Source of the DNA: Chlamydia trachomatis
GTDB lineage: Bacteria > Chlamydiota > Chlamydiia > Chlamydiales > JAAKFR01
DNA: 13,728 nt
Assembly: GCA_945861315.1 (NCBI GenBank)
Contig: CAMAUB010000017.1
Span: forward strand, 1 to 13,728
Direction of reading: 5' to 3'
In this document: positions 3,275 to 11,006 of the stretch, in pieces
How positions within the stretch are numbered: position 1 is the stretch's first letter
How the letters are laid out: every line of letters begins with the position of its first letter
Made by a program: the position numbers and the translations under genes
Notes under the pieces: generated by a model
What the model was told of the DNA's origin: nothing
Seen by the model: only the letters and a program-made list of their open reading frames with translations
Database searches by the model: none

Positions 3275-4366
3275 ATGCTTGTTTCTCTTTACGACCACTC
3301 AAATATTGATACAATTGTTTGGCCCAAAACACAGATGGGAGCAACTGCTAAAGCAGTGCTTCTACCAATGATTCGTGATGGAGTGACACCTTACATTTCG
3401 AATGTTGAAACAACGCTTAACTTACTCAAACTGGATGAACACTTAATTCCACTCACAATCAATGAGCGTGAATATCACAGCTCTTATCTTACTTCGAATT
3501 ATTATATTATATCTGGAAAACAAGAAAAGCTTTCAAAATCAACAATTCGTCGAAGTCTTGTCACAGCAGCGGGTGGTTTTTTTAAAGGAATTAAAATTAA
3601 TCGTAGCGTTCTCATCAATAATTGGCTTATCAGTTCAAATATTTTACCAAGTCTGACGCTTCAGCAGCTCAATACAATCACGCAGTTTTTAATTGTTGCT
3701 TTTCCAACGCATTCAATCAATTTTCGCTCTTTGTATGATGATTCTATAAGTTCTTTTAAGCAGCTTAAATATGCTCTATTTCAAGCTCGAGAGATCTTTG
3801 GCTATGATCCTAAATGGAAGCAGACGTTGACCTCTCAAGCACGTTATCACCATCGTCGGGATAGACGACTTGTGAATAAGTTAGGCTATTTAGTGCTTAG
3901 AAATAATGAACTGATAGGGCGTGAAAAACGGATCTGTGAGCTGAACCGAAAGATATATATTGACAAGCATACAAAATATGGCCCAGCTTATACGGAGAAG
4001 TTTTTTCAAGTAGCTCTTTTATCGCCACTATTTGATTTTGTGGCTCTTGAAAAAGATGGAGTTATTGAAGGCGTTTTTGCAGCTTATAAAGGAGAACAAA
4101 AAATGTGTGTTCCCATCTTTGGTTATGACCCAGAACATCCACAAATGAGCCAAATCTATCGCATGCTCACACTACTTGTGATCGATGAATCAGAACACTG
4201 CGGCCTGTTTCTCAATGATGGGACGGGCGGAGATGTGACAAAGCAGCTGCGAGGGATGCAGAAATTCCCTGAATACGCAGCAATCTATGCACGCCATTTA
4301 CGCCCTCTTCGCCGCTCATTTTGGGCTCTTGCCGATCACTTTACAACTTCACCAACAATAAAGTGA
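3275..4366 (+). CDS. GNAT/FemAB-like putative acyl or aminoacyl transferase
   Basis: A 363-residue protein of uncertain family. The C-terminal half (about residues 180-345) has the texture of a GNAT/FemAB-like fold: a strand reading FDFVALEKDGVIEGVFAAY, a helix starting at SQIYRMLTLLVIDESE, a strand GLFLNDGTG, and a terminal LRGMQKFPEYAAIYARHL region like that of acyltransferases in peptidoglycan and natural-product pathways. The N-terminal half has no recognisable motif. The start ATG lies inside a small palindrome (AGCATAAA at 3262-3269 paired with 3272-3279), which could occlude initiation; an alternative ATG at 3335 would remove 20 residues. It lies 11 bp after the membrane-protein gene and its 3' end overlaps the convergent BtaA-like gene by 31 bp. 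Family assignment is tentative. Confidence 0.6.
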   Translation: MLVSLYDHSNIDTIVWPKTQMGATAKAVLLPMIRDGVTPYISNVETTLNLLKLDEHLIPLTINEREYHSSYLTSNYYIISGKQEKLSKSTIRRSLVTAAGGFFKGIKINRSVLINNWLISSNILPSLTLQQLNTITQFLIVAFPTHSINFRSLYDDSISSFKQLKYALFQAREIFGYDPKWKQTLTSQARYHHRRDRRLVNKLGYLVLRNNELIGREKRICELNRKIYIDKHTKYGPAYTEKFFQVALLSPLFDFVALEKDGVIEGVFAAYKGEQKMCVPIFGYDPEHPQMSQIYRMLTLLVIDESEHCGLFLNDGTGGDVTKQLRGMQKFPEYAAIYARHLRPLRRSFWALADHFTTSPTIK

Positions 4367-5421: not shown

Positions 5422-6159
5422 TTAGAAGTTTGCAACAAGAGCGATTCTTGCGCCTAGTAAAATAAATTTAGTATCCAAGTAATCGCTTGGATAGTCTTCT
5501 CTCCCTCCATAATGACGAAATTCATAGAAGGGAGTGAGTGAGAAACGTAGATTCATACGTGTACATGAGGGAGATAAGACAAGTGGAAGCTCAATGCGCA
5601 CATTAATTTCTTCATTCATTTTTAAAACCACATCGTCATGAGCTGGATCATCTGAAATCTTTGTTTGCGCCTTTTGCATAAACATCATTTTGAAGCTAAA
5701 TCCCATACTTAGCAAAGATGACGAATAGACTCCAGATAAAAAACCAACAGGGATGTAGTTAAAGGTATCTGTGAATTTAAATGGGATTGGTGTAGGAGGG
5801 AAAAAATCATTCACTTCGTGGTAATAGCCATAGCCACTAAAGAGGAAAAAGAAATGATTTTTATCTGAGAAGGAGCAGCCAACTCTCCCTTCATAAACTT
5901 TATCTGTTAAAATGGAGGAAATTGGACGCTGAGATCCTGTGTGGCCTATAAGTTTTGCAGAACCATAAAAATAATCTCCTCCGAAATAAAAGCGTTGCAA
6001 ACGATTATAAGAGAGGCGTATCCCATCTATACGCCCATTTTGTTGCGTTCCACCATCACGCATACGTTTGATATGTGCGCTCTCCATGCCAACTGAAAAT
6101 TGCGCATGAAGCGTTGAGGTTGCGAAGGTTATTAATAGACACCTTGCGTAACTTCCCAT
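5422..6159 (-). CDS. Putative outer-membrane beta-barrel protein
   Basis: A 245-residue protein beginning with a classical signal peptide (MGSYARCLLITFATSTLHA, cleavage probably before the Gln) and followed by alternating aromatic/polar stretches typical of barrel strands, for example RFYFGGDYFYGSAKL and HFFFLFSGYGYYHEV. It ends in LVANF, and a C-terminal Phe is the usual signal for outer-membrane assembly. The frame stays open upstream to an ATG at 6279, but those 40 residues are highly charged and encoded by a palindromic element, and only the start at 6159 puts the signal peptide at the N terminus. The start codon and first eight or so codons lie in or against the end of that element. No specific family was recognised. 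Confidence 0.72.
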   Translation of the reverse strand: MGSYARCLLITFATSTLHAQFSVGMESAHIKRMRDGGTQQNGRIDGIRLSYNRLQRFYFGGDYFYGSAKLIGHTGSQRPISSILTDKVYEGRVGCSFSDKNHFFFLFSGYGYYHEVNDFFPPTPIPFKFTDTFNYIPVGFLSGVYSSSLLSMGFSFKMMFMQKAQTKISDDPAHDDVVLKMNEEINVRIELPLVLSPSCTRMNLRFSLTPFYEFRHYGGREDYPSDYLDTKFILLGARIALVANF

Positions 6160-6304
6160 GGTCGTTAAATGGATTTTTTTGCGTATTTTTTTTTCGTTCG
6201 TTTTTCGCCTACTCCATTTGAGTATATCAAAAAACGCACGGAAAAAATCTACGCAAAAATATCTCATTTCTCGACTCATGATAAGTTACGCAGGATGTCT
6301 AATA
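6133..6304. repeat. Palindromic element B at the start of the barrel gene
   Basis: The ends 6133-6154 and 6283-6304 are inverted copies of AAGTTACGCA..TGTCTA with 19 of 22 bases identical. The interior also pairs: 6155-6216 resembles the reverse complement of 6219-6282, sharing ATG.GTCG, TTTTTGCGTA and CGTTTTT blocks, and the centre is TACTC-CATTT-GAGTA. The whole is about 172 bp. It covers the start codon and first codons of the barrel gene on the minus strand, and mirrors them on the plus strand as ATG 6278 followed by ISYAGCLI and a stop. It is open in at least one frame on each strand. No transposase is present. Confidence 0.75.
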
Positions 6305-6589
6305 TAAGAATCAATTTCATGTTAGCTACAATTTTTCATCGTATCATGAATTAAAATTTCAATTGAGAAAAAAGATCTGTTAATCTTATCATTTTCTTAA
6401 CGGAATATTTGGTTTACTTGGAAATCAGACGTCTCGACAATTTTTTTTCTAAAGTAGCATTCATAATTTTGCTGATCTTCAAAAGGTTAGCTTAGATCCT
6501 TTAATTTCTGCCTAGTAAAAATCTTGCCGAAATGTCCCATGGCTGAGTGAGCAAAAATCTCTAAAAAAAACCCAATCAGGAGGCATTTT
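6305..6589. other. AT-rich intergenic region, no gene seen
   Basis: Together with palindrome B this forms a gap of about 430 bp between the divergent barrel gene and the secreted-protein gene. It has oligo-T and oligo-A runs (6441-6448, 6563-6570) and a CATAAT box at 6462-6467, but no -35 at proper spacing, no RNA gene and no plausible coding frame. It presumably carries the promoter of the downstream gene. Confidence 0.5.
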
Positions 6590-7314: not shown

Positions 7315-8604
7315 CTAAAGTGCGTTTTTGATTTGAGAAGCGATCTCAAATTCTTCTTGAGTGGGAATAATACAGACGGTGACCTTGGAGAGTGGAGATG
7401 AAATGATGCGTGGCGATGATGATGTGAGGTTGTTCTCACGATGGTCAATAGCTATTCCGAGGAAAGATAAGCGTTCACAAGCATCTTGGCGAACAAATGG
7501 TGCATTCTCTCCAATTCCTGCTGTAAAAACCAGTGTATCAAGTCCTCCAAGGGAGGCCGCCATCATGGCAATATACCCAGCGAGGCGGTGCTGAAACATG
7601 TCGAGGCTAAGCTGTGCACGGAGACTACCGCTATGTGCCTGTTTTAAAATATCACGCATATCTTCTGAAATACCTGAGATGCCAAGCAGTCCAGATTCAT
7701 TGTTGAGCATATGATTGATTTGTTCAGAAGTGTGATTATGAAGAAGGTCAAGGATAAGGCCAGGATCGATAGATCCGCAACGTGAGACCATCATTAGTCC
7801 ATCAAGGGGAGAGTAGCCCATTGTTGTGTCGACACTTTTCCCTTTGTCAATTGCGCAAAGGGAGGCTCCAGCGCCCAGATGACAAACAATGACTCGCTCT
7901 TTGGTAGAGAGCTCTTTCACTTTTTTAGAGCAGTATTCATGACTTATGCCATGAAATCCATATTTTCGCATCCCCCTCTCACGCAGATGTAGAGGAATGG
8001 GATAGGTAAAGACCTCTTCTTTTATGGTATGATGGAAAGCAGTATCAAAAACGGCATAGTGTGGAATATTTGGAAAAGTTTTTTCAGCAATTTCAATCCC
8101 CTCTAGGTCTTTGGGATTGTGCAATGGAGCGAGAGAGAAGAGCTTTTTAATGGCGCGTTTGACCTCTTCATCGATGCGGGTGAGTGCATAGTATTGCTCG
8201 CCCCCATGAACAACTCGGTGCCCAATAGCATCAATCTCTTTGGTAGGTAGTGCGTTGAGGATATGCAAGAGAGCTTCACCTGCCGATTTGATGTTGACAA
8301 TCTGACTCACCTTACGCATTTTTTTCTCTTCACAAAGTGGCTGCAAAGGCCAACCTGCTTCAGAGTGTTCCTCGACCAACTTTATAAAGTTGCTCTTCGT
8401 CTCACTCTTCGCATTTTGACCCCCTCGCTCACTCTGTGAAGGAAAAAAATGCGTAAGGTGAGTTTGAGTTTGATTGCCAATTTCTAGATAGGCATCTTTG
8501 AAGTTTTCTTTCCATTGCATAGATGCAGACCAGATGCACTCATCTGCAAAAAGTGCACATTTATAGCTTGATGAGCCAGCATTGATGACAAGAATTATAC
8601 CCAT
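7315..8604 (-). CDS. ackA: Acetate kinase with a 53-residue palindromic insert
   Basis: Acetate kinase (acetyl-phosphate + ADP to acetate + ATP), 429 residues. Family motifs are present in order: INAGSSSYK at the N terminus, AIGHRVVHGG, APLHNP, AVFDTAFHHT, GFHGISHEY, CHLGAGASLCAI, GIGENAPFVR and the terminal IPTQEEFEIA. Residues 48-100 are an insert encoded by a palindromic element (8305-8463) relative to other family members; without it the protein would have 376 residues, slightly below the usual length of about 400. The insert falls in the variable N-terminal region between the first strands and AIGHR, where it may be tolerated as a surface loop. The ATG at 8604 is preferred; a TTG two codons earlier is possible. 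It overlaps the end of the phosphoketolase gene by 10 bp, indicating translational coupling. Confidence 0.96.
   Translation of the reverse strand: MGIILVINAGSSSYKCALFADECIWSASMQWKENFKDAYLEIGNQTQTHLTHFFPSQSERGGQNAKSETKSNFIKLVEEHSEAGWPLQPLCEEKKMRKVSQIVNIKSAGEALLHILNALPTKEIDAIGHRVVHGGEQYYALTRIDEEVKRAIKKLFSLAPLHNPKDLEGIEIAEKTFPNIPHYAVFDTAFHHTIKEEVFTYPIPLHLRERGMRKYGFHGISHEYCSKKVKELSTKERVIVCHLGAGASLCAIDKGKSVDTTMGYSPLDGLMMVSRCGSIDPGLILDLLHNHTSEQINHMLNNESGLLGISGISEDMRDILKQAHSGSLRAQLSLDMFQHRLAGYIAMMAASLGGLDTLVFTAGIGENAPFVRQDACERLSFLGIAIDHRENNLTSSSPRIISSPLSKVTVCIIPTQEEFEIASQIKNAL
8305..8463. repeat. Palindromic element C, in frame within ackA
   Basis: The ends are perfect 22-base inverted repeats: 8305-8326 (ACTCACCTTACGCA, seven T, C) and 8442-8463. 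The exact centre is a 16-base palindrome, CAACTTTATAAAGTTG at 8377-8392, and the arms between pair imperfectly, including CTTCACA.AGTG blocks. Total length is 159 bp, which is exactly 53 codons, and its boundaries coincide with codon boundaries of acetate kinase. The encoded peptide, starting THLTHFFPSQSERGG, has no counterpart in acetate kinases. This is how Rickettsia palindromic elements behave, but the sequence itself is not one I recognise. Confidence 0.9.
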
Positions 8605-11006
8605 TGCCAATTCGAGATCTCTTCTGGATCTGTCCCATATTTTAGGATGTACTTTCGGTGGCGAATAAGCTCATACTCATAGTGCGCAATAAGCTCATTT
8701 GCTTTAGCTGCAACTTTAGGATTGTGTTTTGCACTGTGTCGAATAGCTTGCATAATCAGATGGTAGCGGTCTATCTTATTACGTACACACATGTCAAAAG
8801 GAGTCGTTGTCGTCCCTTCTTCAAGATAACCATTTATTGTAAAGCGATTGATTCTTTCTCTTTCATGAAGAAGTTGTTTGATGACAGATGGGTAGCCATG
8901 GAAGTTAATAATCACAGGTTTATCAGCTGTAAAAAGAGCATCAAACATCTCTTCATCAAGTCCATGAGGATGAACTGTATTTTTTTCTAGGATCAAAAGG
9001 TCGGTGATATTTACGACACGAACTCTCAACTCAGGAAGTTCATTATGTAGAATCTGCGCTGCAGCCATTACTTCTAAATGTGGGTTGTCACCAATTCCAG
9101 CTAGGATAATATCGGGATTTATTCCTTCATCTGTACTAGCCCATCTCCAAACTGAGGCACCAGCTTGACAGTGTGCAATCGCTTCATCCATGGAGAGCCA
9201 TTGAGGCATCATCTGTTTTCCTGCAACAACAAGGTTAACATAGCCTCGACTCTTTAGGCAGTGGTCAAATGTACTGATCAATGTATTGGCATCAGGTGGC
9301 AAGTAGACACGCACAATGTTTGGCTTGAGGTTGAGCAAAATATTGATGAAGCCTGGATTTTGATGTGAAAATCCATTGTGTTCCTGACGCCATAAGGTGG
9401 ATGTTTCAAGGTAATTGAGAGAAGCAAATGGATGACGCCAAGGTATTTCCCGACAAAATTTGAGAAATTTAGCAAATTGAAGCATCATTGTTGCAGCGAT
9501 ACTTAAGAAAGCCTCATAGGAAGGAAAAACACCGTGGCGGCCTGTCATAAGATAGCCTTGTAGCCATCCTTGGCAGGTGTGTTCACTTAAAATCTCGCTT
9601 ATTCTTCCACCTAGAGAAGAGATGTGCTCATCAAACTTTCCAATTGGCCATTGATAGTTACGATGGGTTACTTTGAGAACCTCCGACAATTGATTGGACT
9701 CCAATTCGTCGGGAGAGAAGATGCGGAAAGAGTGGGGATTTCTTATGATCACCTCTTTAATATACTGACCAAGTTGAGACATGCTGCGCTCTACCGTGCT
9801 TCCTCGTTTTGCGTGCTTAGGAAGTTCAGTTTCAAAATCATGAATAGAGGGGAGGTTTAGGGGCTTTAAGCACACTCCTCCAAATGTATGAGGATTTGTT
9901 CCCATTCTGCGATGAGGCTTTGGACAGTTTTCAAGAATTTCAGGGATTGGCTTTCCATGTTCATCTAATAGTTCTTCAATATGATAGGAGCGAAACCACC
10001 CCTCAACAAGTTTGAGAGACTTTGGATTGGTCTTAGCATCTTTAACAGGAACTTGGTGAGAGCGGTATGAACCCTCTATTGGAATTCCATTGATCTCTTT
10101 GATTCCAGTCCATCCTTTTGGAGAACGCAGTAAGATAACGGGCCATTTTGGTTTGCTTTGAGGATGGCCGAAGCGCGCGGCCTCTTGAATTGATTTGATC
10201 TCCCCATAGGCCCACTCAAGAGCAATGAAAAGATCGGCATGAAGGTCTTGAATTTTTTCTACAATATAGGGTTGATAGCCATATCCTTCAAAAAGAGAGG
10301 TGAGCTCCTGGTCATCCATTGTGCCGTAAATAGTTGGATTTGCGAGTTTATACCCATTGAGATGAAGAATAGGCAAGACAGCGCCAGATTCTATGGGGTC
10401 AATATACTTTGTGCTATGCCATGCCGTCGCTGTTGGTCCAGTCTCTGCTTCTCCGTCACCCACAATACACGTGACAATCAAATTGGGATTATCCATCACT
10501 GCACCAAAGGCGGTTGCTAGTGCATAACCAAGCTCTCCCCCTTCGTGAATCGTTCCCGGAATCCCGGAGTAGAGGTGACTTGGAAAACCTCCTGGCCATG
10601 AAAAACGTTTGATAAAATCTTCAAGTCCATCGTGATTGAGCTTGAGATCTGGGTAAAATTCTTCTAATGAACGTTCTAAGTACAAGTTTGCTAAATTGGC
10701 AGGAGCGCCATGTCCCGGACCTGTGACTAAAAACATGTCCAGATCATGGGCCCGAATTAAGCGATTGAGGTGTGTGTAGATAAAGTTGATTCCAGGGGAA
10801 GTTCCCCAGTGACCAAGAAGACGCTCTTTAATATTCTCAGGCTTCAGAGGTTCTTTTAGTAAGGTGTTGTCTTTCAAATAAATCTGCGCAGCTGCCAAAT
10901 AGTTGACAAGGCGAAAGTACTTCTCAAGCCTCTCTAGCTCAACCCCATGTTCTTTTCTGCAGATAGCAATATCATGAGTGTGTGTCTTTTTGATCTTAAT
11001 TTCCAT
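8595..11006 (-). CDS. xfp: Phosphoketolase (xylulose-5-P/fructose-6-P)
   Basis: An 803-residue thiamine-diphosphate enzyme of full family length (about 790-800). It splits xylulose 5-phosphate (and in some members fructose 6-phosphate) with phosphate into acetyl-phosphate and glyceraldehyde 3-phosphate (or erythrose 4-phosphate). Family motifs seen: GHWGTSPG (65-72), GPGHGAP (96-102), EGGELGYAL (155-163), the cofactor motif GDGEAETGPT (183-192), and later GYLMTGRHGVFPSYEAF and SHQNPG. Acetate kinase follows with a short overlap, so acetyl-phosphate is turned directly into ATP. The start has no evident Shine-Dalgarno sequence; a TATAAT lies 18-23 bases upstream on the minus strand (11024-11029) without a clear -35. 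Which sugar phosphate is used cannot be told from sequence. Confidence 0.97.
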   Translation of the reverse strand: MEIKIKKTHTHDIAICRKEHGVELERLEKYFRLVNYLAAAQIYLKDNTLLKEPLKPENIKERLLGHWGTSPGINFIYTHLNRLIRAHDLDMFLVTGPGHGAPANLANLYLERSLEEFYPDLKLNHDGLEDFIKRFSWPGGFPSHLYSGIPGTIHEGGELGYALATAFGAVMDNPNLIVTCIVGDGEAETGPTATAWHSTKYIDPIESGAVLPILHLNGYKLANPTIYGTMDDQELTSLFEGYGYQPYIVEKIQDLHADLFIALEWAYGEIKSIQEAARFGHPQSKPKWPVILLRSPKGWTGIKEINGIPIEGSYRSHQVPVKDAKTNPKSLKLVEGWFRSYHIEELLDEHGKPIPEILENCPKPHRRMGTNPHTFGGVCLKPLNLPSIHDFETELPKHAKRGSTVERSMSQLGQYIKEVIIRNPHSFRIFSPDELESNQLSEVLKVTHRNYQWPIGKFDEHISSLGGRISEILSEHTCQGWLQGYLMTGRHGVFPSYEAFLSIAATMMLQFAKFLKFCREIPWRHPFASLNYLETSTLWRQEHNGFSHQNPGFINILLNLKPNIVRVYLPPDANTLISTFDHCLKSRGYVNLVVAGKQMMPQWLSMDEAIAHCQAGASVWRWASTDEGINPDIILAGIGDNPHLEVMAAAQILHNELPELRVRVVNITDLLILEKNTVHPHGLDEEMFDALFTADKPVIINFHGYPSVIKQLLHERERINRFTINGYLEEGTTTTPFDMCVRNKIDRYHLIMQAIRHSAKHNPKVAAKANELIAHYEYELIRHRKYILKYGTDPEEISNWQWV

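Follow-up and report, generated by a model that had tools for sequence, protein, structure and literature searches.

The best-documented cases of selfish palindromes that are translated as part of a host protein come from Rickettsia and Wolbachia, and in-frame fusions are also known for enterobacterial and neisserial MITEs. The available sections of one study describe Rickettsia palindromic elements (RPEs) of 105-146 bp that lie in frame in conserved proteins, and among these a guanylate kinase with an RPE that is translated and active, with a changed substrate affinity (PMC2229807). For the RPE groups examined, the inserts are reported, in the accessible part of a second paper, to lie in solvent-exposed areas (PMC3767692), and a review, as far as its available text goes, regards in-frame MITE fusions as not unusual, yet exceptionally frequent in Rickettsia (PMC10969869). 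Outside this group, RU-1 (ERIC) and RU-2 (YPAL) are described in excerpts of two sources as MITE-like hairpins of 127 and 168 bp with open frames that are fused in frame into genes, and the same excerpts present YPO1552 as a protein whose signal peptide is partly formed by an enterobacterial element (PMC2759123, PMC2229807). Among the open-access papers listed in literature searches, none reports palindromic or MITE elements in chlamydiae in its title or in the beginning of its abstract, a result that is no proof of absence; a paper that discusses the insertion sequences of Rhabdochlamydia contains neither "palindrom" nor "mite" in the portion of its text that was available (PMC9723776).

The locus described here lies in a window of 13,728 bp, which is the whole stretch of DNA analysed. 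Its ackA gene (7315-8610, minus strand) encodes an acetate kinase, recognised by Pfam PF00871 (E 1.7e-118) and by NCBIfam TIGR00016, over the cut-off of the latter. The next gene upstream, whose end overlaps ackA, is xfp (8595-11006, minus strand; Pfam PF09364, PF03894 and PF09363), which encodes a phosphoketolase; XFP makes acetyl phosphate, from which AckA then makes ATP. Within ackA, a palindromic element, named E3 (8306-8462, minus strand), is found in frame. It has perfect terminal inverted repeats of 22 bp (8305-8326 and 8442-8463, which include one base on each side of the element) and a 16-bp palindrome, CAACTTTATAAAGTTG, at its centre (8377-8392). As RNA, the 159 nt from 8305 to 8463 are nearly all self-complementary and form one single hairpin of -91.4 kcal/mol, against a mean of -39.1 (sd 3.7) for shuffled versions (z -14.2), and none of 200 dinucleotide shuffles folds as well. 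The stems are imperfect, and the inner sequence is unrelated. The limits of the element can be drawn in two ways, either as 157 bp (8306-8462) with a probable 5-bp target duplication that matches at 4 of 5 positions (left copy TCTGA, 8301-8305; right copy TTTGA, 8463-8467), or as 159 bp (8306-8464) with a perfect 3-bp duplication, TGA (8303-8305 and 8465-8467). When all six reading frames are checked, E3 is free of stops in the ackA frame only; the chance of staying open in one given frame is 0.03 for shuffled E3 and 0.066 for a random palindrome built from one shuffled half of E3. The original prediction had described 22-bp perfect inverted ends, a 16-bp central palindrome and an addition of exactly 53 codons that leaves the enzyme gene unbroken. 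The ends and the centre are present and the ackA frame is open across E3; the gain has to be corrected to 54 codons (162 bp), because a short target duplication arrived together with the element. Two other identities of E3 were considered and rejected: that of a tandem repeat, and that of an RNA gene, riboswitch or terminator, which is ruled out by its position inside a coding frame and by the Rfam search, where nothing reached the gathering level.

The relatives of the enzyme are uninterrupted at this site. The window's AckA was aligned with 16 relatives, drawn from 120 matches listed, one of which is the window's own, and the insert is absent from all 16. Where the 431-residue reading of the window has QT, 54 residues (about 49-102) and then QIV, P0002, which is 62% identical to it in the search table, has KT directly followed by QIV, and P0003 and P0004 have QT directly followed by QIV; these empty sites are known as protein sequence rather than as DNA. 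Besides the window's own, none of the 120 matches listed is longer than 412 aa. Orthologues with a clean junction, which had been proposed as a check, are thus at hand in P0002-P0004, and a homologous loop conserved in distant lineages, which would have spoken against an inserted element, occurs in none of the 16. Among the AckA matches that carry a phylum name, the closest is P0012 from the Chlamydiota (47% identical), followed by P0021 from the Verrucomicrobiota (45%); judged by AckA similarity, a tentative guide, the host is probably chlamydial, and the earlier supposition that it is not rickettsial is probably right.

The explanation that we consider likely is that E3 is a copy of a MITE-like, non-autonomous mobile palindromic element that inserted into ackA of an uncultured, probably chlamydial bacterium and is read through as a loop. 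The palindromic structure, the uninterrupted proteins of the relatives and the open frame are shown; that E3 was transposed, that it exists in multiple copies, and that the loop is translated and retained in the protein is inferred.

A second palindromic element, E2 (6138-6299, minus strand; 162 bp, fold z -13.8), lies in the signal-peptide region of an ORF (5422-6279, minus strand) that encodes an outer-membrane-like protein with no Pfam family and that is split near its start by the element. E2 is flanked by two copies of TAATA (6133-6137 and 6300-6304), a target duplication that matches at 5 of 5 positions, and 16 of 20 of its end bases are paired as a terminal inverted repeat. Upstream of it, an ATG at 6320 (minus strand) looks like the original start and reads MKLILIL before a stop is met inside E2; downstream, the outer-membrane-like reading resumes as ITFATSTLHAQFSVG. 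Twelve of the 13 relatives of this protein were aligned, with P0134 left out; two of the twelve (P0126 and P0127) are without the N-terminal end and two (P0128 and P0130) start further upstream. In P0122, read from the second M onwards, the signal peptide is unbroken (MMKLLLIFLSVLQSTLLGQFYVG), as it is in P0124 (MKLTLTLIALLGNFSLHALFSVG); MKLILIL and ITFATSTLHAQFSVG, the flanks of E2, match the signal peptide of P0122 in order and length, and that of P0124 to within one residue. The total gain caused by E2 is 167 bp, which is not divisible by three, and the old start at 6320 is therefore cut off. An ATG at 6159, inside E2, is in frame with the rest of the ORF and would give MGSYARCLLITFATSTLHAQ; translation may start there, to judge from the reading frame, and another ATG of the same ORF stands at 6279. 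P0122 and P0002 are each listed with a longest contig of 4,407 bp, probably one and the same, which would then be without both insertions. A search with the outer-membrane-like alignment in 387 genomes of the phylum to which the Kiritimatiellae genome G001 belongs gave no match, which says nothing about the host.

The original prediction had reported a single hairpin, which is real and turns out to be one of three in the window: three segments stand out in a fold scan with a sliding frame, namely E3, E2 (as 6133-6304) and a third foldback, E1 (1-129, fold z -13.95), which lies under no listed ORF. E1 is situated at the extreme end of the contig, a position that would fit a break of the assembly at a repeat or hairpin. 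The density of such structures was compared with control DNA consisting of 80 genome loci of other bacteria. A genome scan with the AckA alignment listed at least 80 loci, none of which bears a chlamydial title. The count used for enrichment was a palindrome self-alignment with a score of at least 50, which gives 3 sites in the 13,728 bases of the window and 9 in 820,664 control bases (Poisson P about 0.0005, a value that is optimistic because the control sites cluster, with two each in L039 and L062). The remaining loci beyond the 80 controls hold 2 foldbacks of this score, and two chlamydial plasmids, with 147.6 kb, hold one, 92 bp long. An energy scan of one strand in 40-base steps, with z below -4, finds 2 sites in the window and 15 in 12 of the 80 control loci, and misses E3 because the element falls between the steps. 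A count of nested pairs (at least 50) gives 2 segments here and 151 in 54 of the 80 control loci, and thus no enrichment; it was discarded, as its top ranks went to regions that have 66 pairs and fold at only -24 kcal/mol and E3 was not among the best.

Kinship among the three foldbacks is confined to the termini of two of them. That E1, E2 and E3 might be full-length relatives of each other was rejected, since no overall similarity stands clearly above shuffled sequences; the score of E2 against E3 over the whole element is reached by about 10% of shuffles. One end of E2, GACACCTTGCGTAACTT, and one end of E3, CTCACCTTACGCATTTT, share the consensus CACCTTRCGYA, which is equally far from the duplication in each of the two elements. 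With up to one mismatch, this motif occurs at 3 sites in the window, all of them ends of E2 or E3, against 0.31 expected, and 1 of 200 shuffles reaches 3; the count is supportive only, because the same sites had served to define the motif. The best match between the termini of E2 and E3 is 9 of 13 bases, which a random pair of 13-mers reaches with P 0.0019; the register was chosen post hoc. At its other end, E2 departs from the motif at 2 positions, and the terminus of E1 differs from that of E2 and E3. On the strength of about 11 terminal bases, E2 and E3 may thus be members of a shared family from which E2 has diverged. In the Simkania plasmid pSn, one 11-base match to the terminal motif (L161:10254) is not surrounded by any listed foldback and was set aside as fortuitous.

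Searches for further copies covered phages, plasmids, viral contigs and proteins. E3 has no match in phages, and in plasmids only nine Enterococcus records over 41 bases (E 0.1), judged to be chance; E1 and E2 have no match in plasmids. Neither an 18-mer of E3 nor a 19-mer of E1 occurs in the viral contigs, and a 16-mer of E3 occurs in 76 stretches, whose alignments with E3 never extend beyond 24 bases, so that these too were judged to be chance. Among 5.8 billion proteins (lengths 237-754 aa), the peptide of the insert region finds only itself, and the element peptides scanned reach no Pfam or NCBIfam cut-off, with weak sub-cut-off matches only (E 0.044-0.21). As a yardstick, three of the nine control hairpins were searched in their own genomes. 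For L062:3638-3798, at least 97 matches were found among the best 40 of 126 candidates, and for L039:2443-2570 at least 78 among the best 40 of 850, with both strands counted apart in each case; L050:3481-3630 gave 10 matches, in four places besides its own, with identities of 74-97% over lengths of 32-122 bases. Two of the three are thus clearly multi-copy, and L050 has a few diverged partial relatives and is not abundant. Many copies of L062:3638-3798 share the outer 62 bases on either side without sharing the centre, as E2 and E3 would. The L062 contig, from an uncultured member of the Clostridia, carries two foldbacks of 160-180 bp (3638-3798 and 10224-10401) within 11 kb, and on L039, a Lentisphaeria contig, the foldbacks at 2443-2570 and 3937-4129 flank the ackA match.

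The lack of a second copy of E3 in the phages, plasmids, viral contigs and proteins searched, together with the lack of any overall sequence common to the three foldbacks, is what would be expected if E3 were a one-off local event, such as template switching or palindrome formation at a replication fork, and belonged to no mobile family. This is the alternative that survives best, and it is nonetheless unlikely. The only repeat partners of E3, among the best 20 of 38 direct families and the best 25 of 59 inverted pairs, are its own arms. The nearby E2 belongs to the same size class and has a similar terminus and a duplication of its own, the window holds three foldbacks in 13.7 kb where 820 kb elsewhere hold nine, and comparable hairpins in the controls are multi-copy in two of three cases. 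Further genomic copies of the element would accordingly be expected under the mobile reading, to which these observations point.

The effect on the enzyme was approached with an AlphaFold model of AckA, built on 17 sequences (mean pLDDT 77.9), which has the acetate kinase fold (best Foldseek matches 7fj7 and 2iir). Residues 48-97, which are enclosed by strands 41-45 and 101-104, have a pLDDT below 50; the other low-confidence segment, 271-279, has nothing to do with the insert. In the Methanosarcina thermophila enzyme (1tuu), the insertion site corresponds by profile alignment, with numbering done by hand, to a turn around residues 44-52. Five of the 16 aligned relatives (P0011, P0016, P0019, P0022 and P0023) are without most of the region around the site, and for this reason the site tolerates changes in length; this portion of the N-terminal domain seems dispensable in some enzymes. 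At thirteen positions that we take to be active-site or motif positions, the window has the common residue throughout, and nine are invariant in all 17 rows; the exceptions in other rows fall at 15 (T, three rows), 17 (R, one), 132 (C, one) and 420 (A or a gap, three). The motif CHLGAGAS of the window (7861-7884) corresponds to HLGAGAS or HLGSGAS in the aligned rows and to HLGNGSS in the Methanosarcina enzyme, a change in a conserved loop that has a role in the active site. According to the model, the insert is probably a tolerated, flexible loop that joins two strands. Of the surface loop for which modelling had been suggested, the loop is thus probable, at the low confidence that a pLDDT below 50 conveys. 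The stronger claim of protein innovation goes beyond what is shown; the insert looks like a loop that is tolerated.

The main functional alternative to a translated loop is that the hairpin is removed or skipped, by an RNase III-like cut of the transcript or by a hop of the ribosome, so that the loop never appears in the protein. Precedents exist in the intervening sequences of 23S rRNA and in ribosome hopping at mitochondrial bypass elements and at T4 gene 60. A stem of -91.4 kcal/mol is an obvious target for a double-strand RNase, and MITE repeats in mRNA are cut by RNase III according to the available part of a review (PMC10969869). Skipping would work just as well with a closed frame or with a gain in length that is not a multiple of three, yet the frame of E3 is open and its gain is divisible by three (joint chance about 0.01, as 1/3 x 0.03), while the guanylate kinase with an RPE is, in the accessible text on it, translated together with its insert (PMC2229807). 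Excision or bypass is disfavoured because the reading frame is kept, and we regard it as improbable, more so than a one-off origin of the palindrome.

Two further alternatives have very little to recommend them. The window appears to be the whole 13,728-bp contig of a metagenomic assembly, and amplification chimeras do produce inverted joins, yet a fold-back chimera inverts neighbouring sequence without resuming the gene on its far side, whereas ackA resumes in frame past E3, a short duplication is seen, the stems are not perfect and the inner sequence is unrelated, which leaves an assembly or amplification artefact barely credible. Equally improbable is a selected loop of the ordinary kind, specific to this lineage and palindromic by coincidence, for which the variable length of the site in the five relatives mentioned could be cited, since palindromy at the nucleotide level (z -14.2) has no protein reason, the closest relatives are uninterrupted at the site and a target duplication is present.

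If E3 is a mobile element, as preferred here, a transposase supplied in trans would have acted on its terminal repeats and placed the hairpin in the turn of ackA, at a time after the lineage had split from its nearest sampled relatives. With a gain of 162 bp, divisible by three, an open element and a target turn between two strands, the ribosome would read straight through, and acetate kinase would then carry a flexible loop of roughly 54 residues. Selection would have kept E3 only because it was suitable in length and in frame and because a loop at this place is tolerated by the enzyme. E2 would represent another member of the family, diverged from E3, whose insertion disrupted a signal peptide and supplied a start codon that could replace the old one.

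A broader proposal, put forward tentatively and a little short of probable, is that one or more multi-copy families of coding palindromes exist in the Chlamydiota, independent of those of Rickettsia and Wolbachia, and that they insert into coding genes often enough to have hit two within 2.2 kb in this window, where one copy would have become an internal loop of an enzyme and another would have taken the place of the start and of half the signal peptide of an outer-membrane-like protein. If this is true, the tolerance of translated selfish hairpins recurs in intracellular bacteria and is not a rickettsial oddity, and a probable chlamydial family, with relatives whose proteins are uninterrupted, would allow one to test if an intracellular way of life promotes insertions of this kind and in what way enzymes accommodate loops of 50 residues.

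When compared with the systems described so far, E2 and E3 share general features with MITEs: they measure 157-162 bp, below 200 bp, and encode no transposase, and they have terminal inverted repeats (22 bp and perfect in E3, 16 of 20 bases in E2). The sequences that flank them may be target duplications (5 of 5 in E2; TGA with 3 of 3, or 4 of 5, in E3), with the empty sites known from proteins. The Correia/NEMIS elements of Neisseria are alike in that these MITEs, too, form hairpins and have duplications and inverted repeats at their ends, and their 107-bp form carries open frames fused to others; unlike E3, they have TA at their termini and repeats of 24 bp, and their 155-bp form is almost only intergenic, as stated in the portion of the source available (PMC2229807). 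The coding palindromes of nematomorph mitochondria resemble E3 as long inverted repeats inside protein-coding genes and differ from it in being organellar, numerous and perfect, with repeats of up to 284 bp, according to the accessible part of their description (PMC6649704). The elements ERIC/RU-1 and YPAL/RU-2, set against E2 and E3 by their description, belong to another host group, the enterobacteria, and E2 would contribute to a signal peptide in the same way as the element in YPO1552, to go by the excerpts cited above.

The closest likeness is to the palindromic elements of Rickettsia, for which ten families are reported, and of Wolbachia, which are, like E3, hairpins in frame in housekeeping proteins in the sections available of three sources (PMC3767692, PMC2229807, PMC10969869). 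These measure about 100-150 bp, with several families per genome, so that E3 is slightly longer; a target duplication is seemingly visible for E3 and is marked with a question mark for RPEs in the table of PMC2229807, as far as that source is available; and the host of E3 probably belongs to another phylum. RPE1 (NCBIfam TIGR01045) has no match at E up to 10 in the frames scanned, which were for E3 that of ackA and an antisense one, for E1 a single frame, and for E2 one frame together with the ORF reading. The analogy to Rickettsia palindromic elements drawn in the original prediction gains support from the in-frame insertion in a conserved gene, and its statement that the sequence is unlike theirs agrees with the absence of an RPE1 match. 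By analogy, E3, an unusually clean example of a palindromic element within an open coding frame, would thus work like an RPE while being placed outside RPE1 by its sequence, and both its family and the host group are probably new, as an independent recurrence of a known phenomenon and not as a new kind of system.
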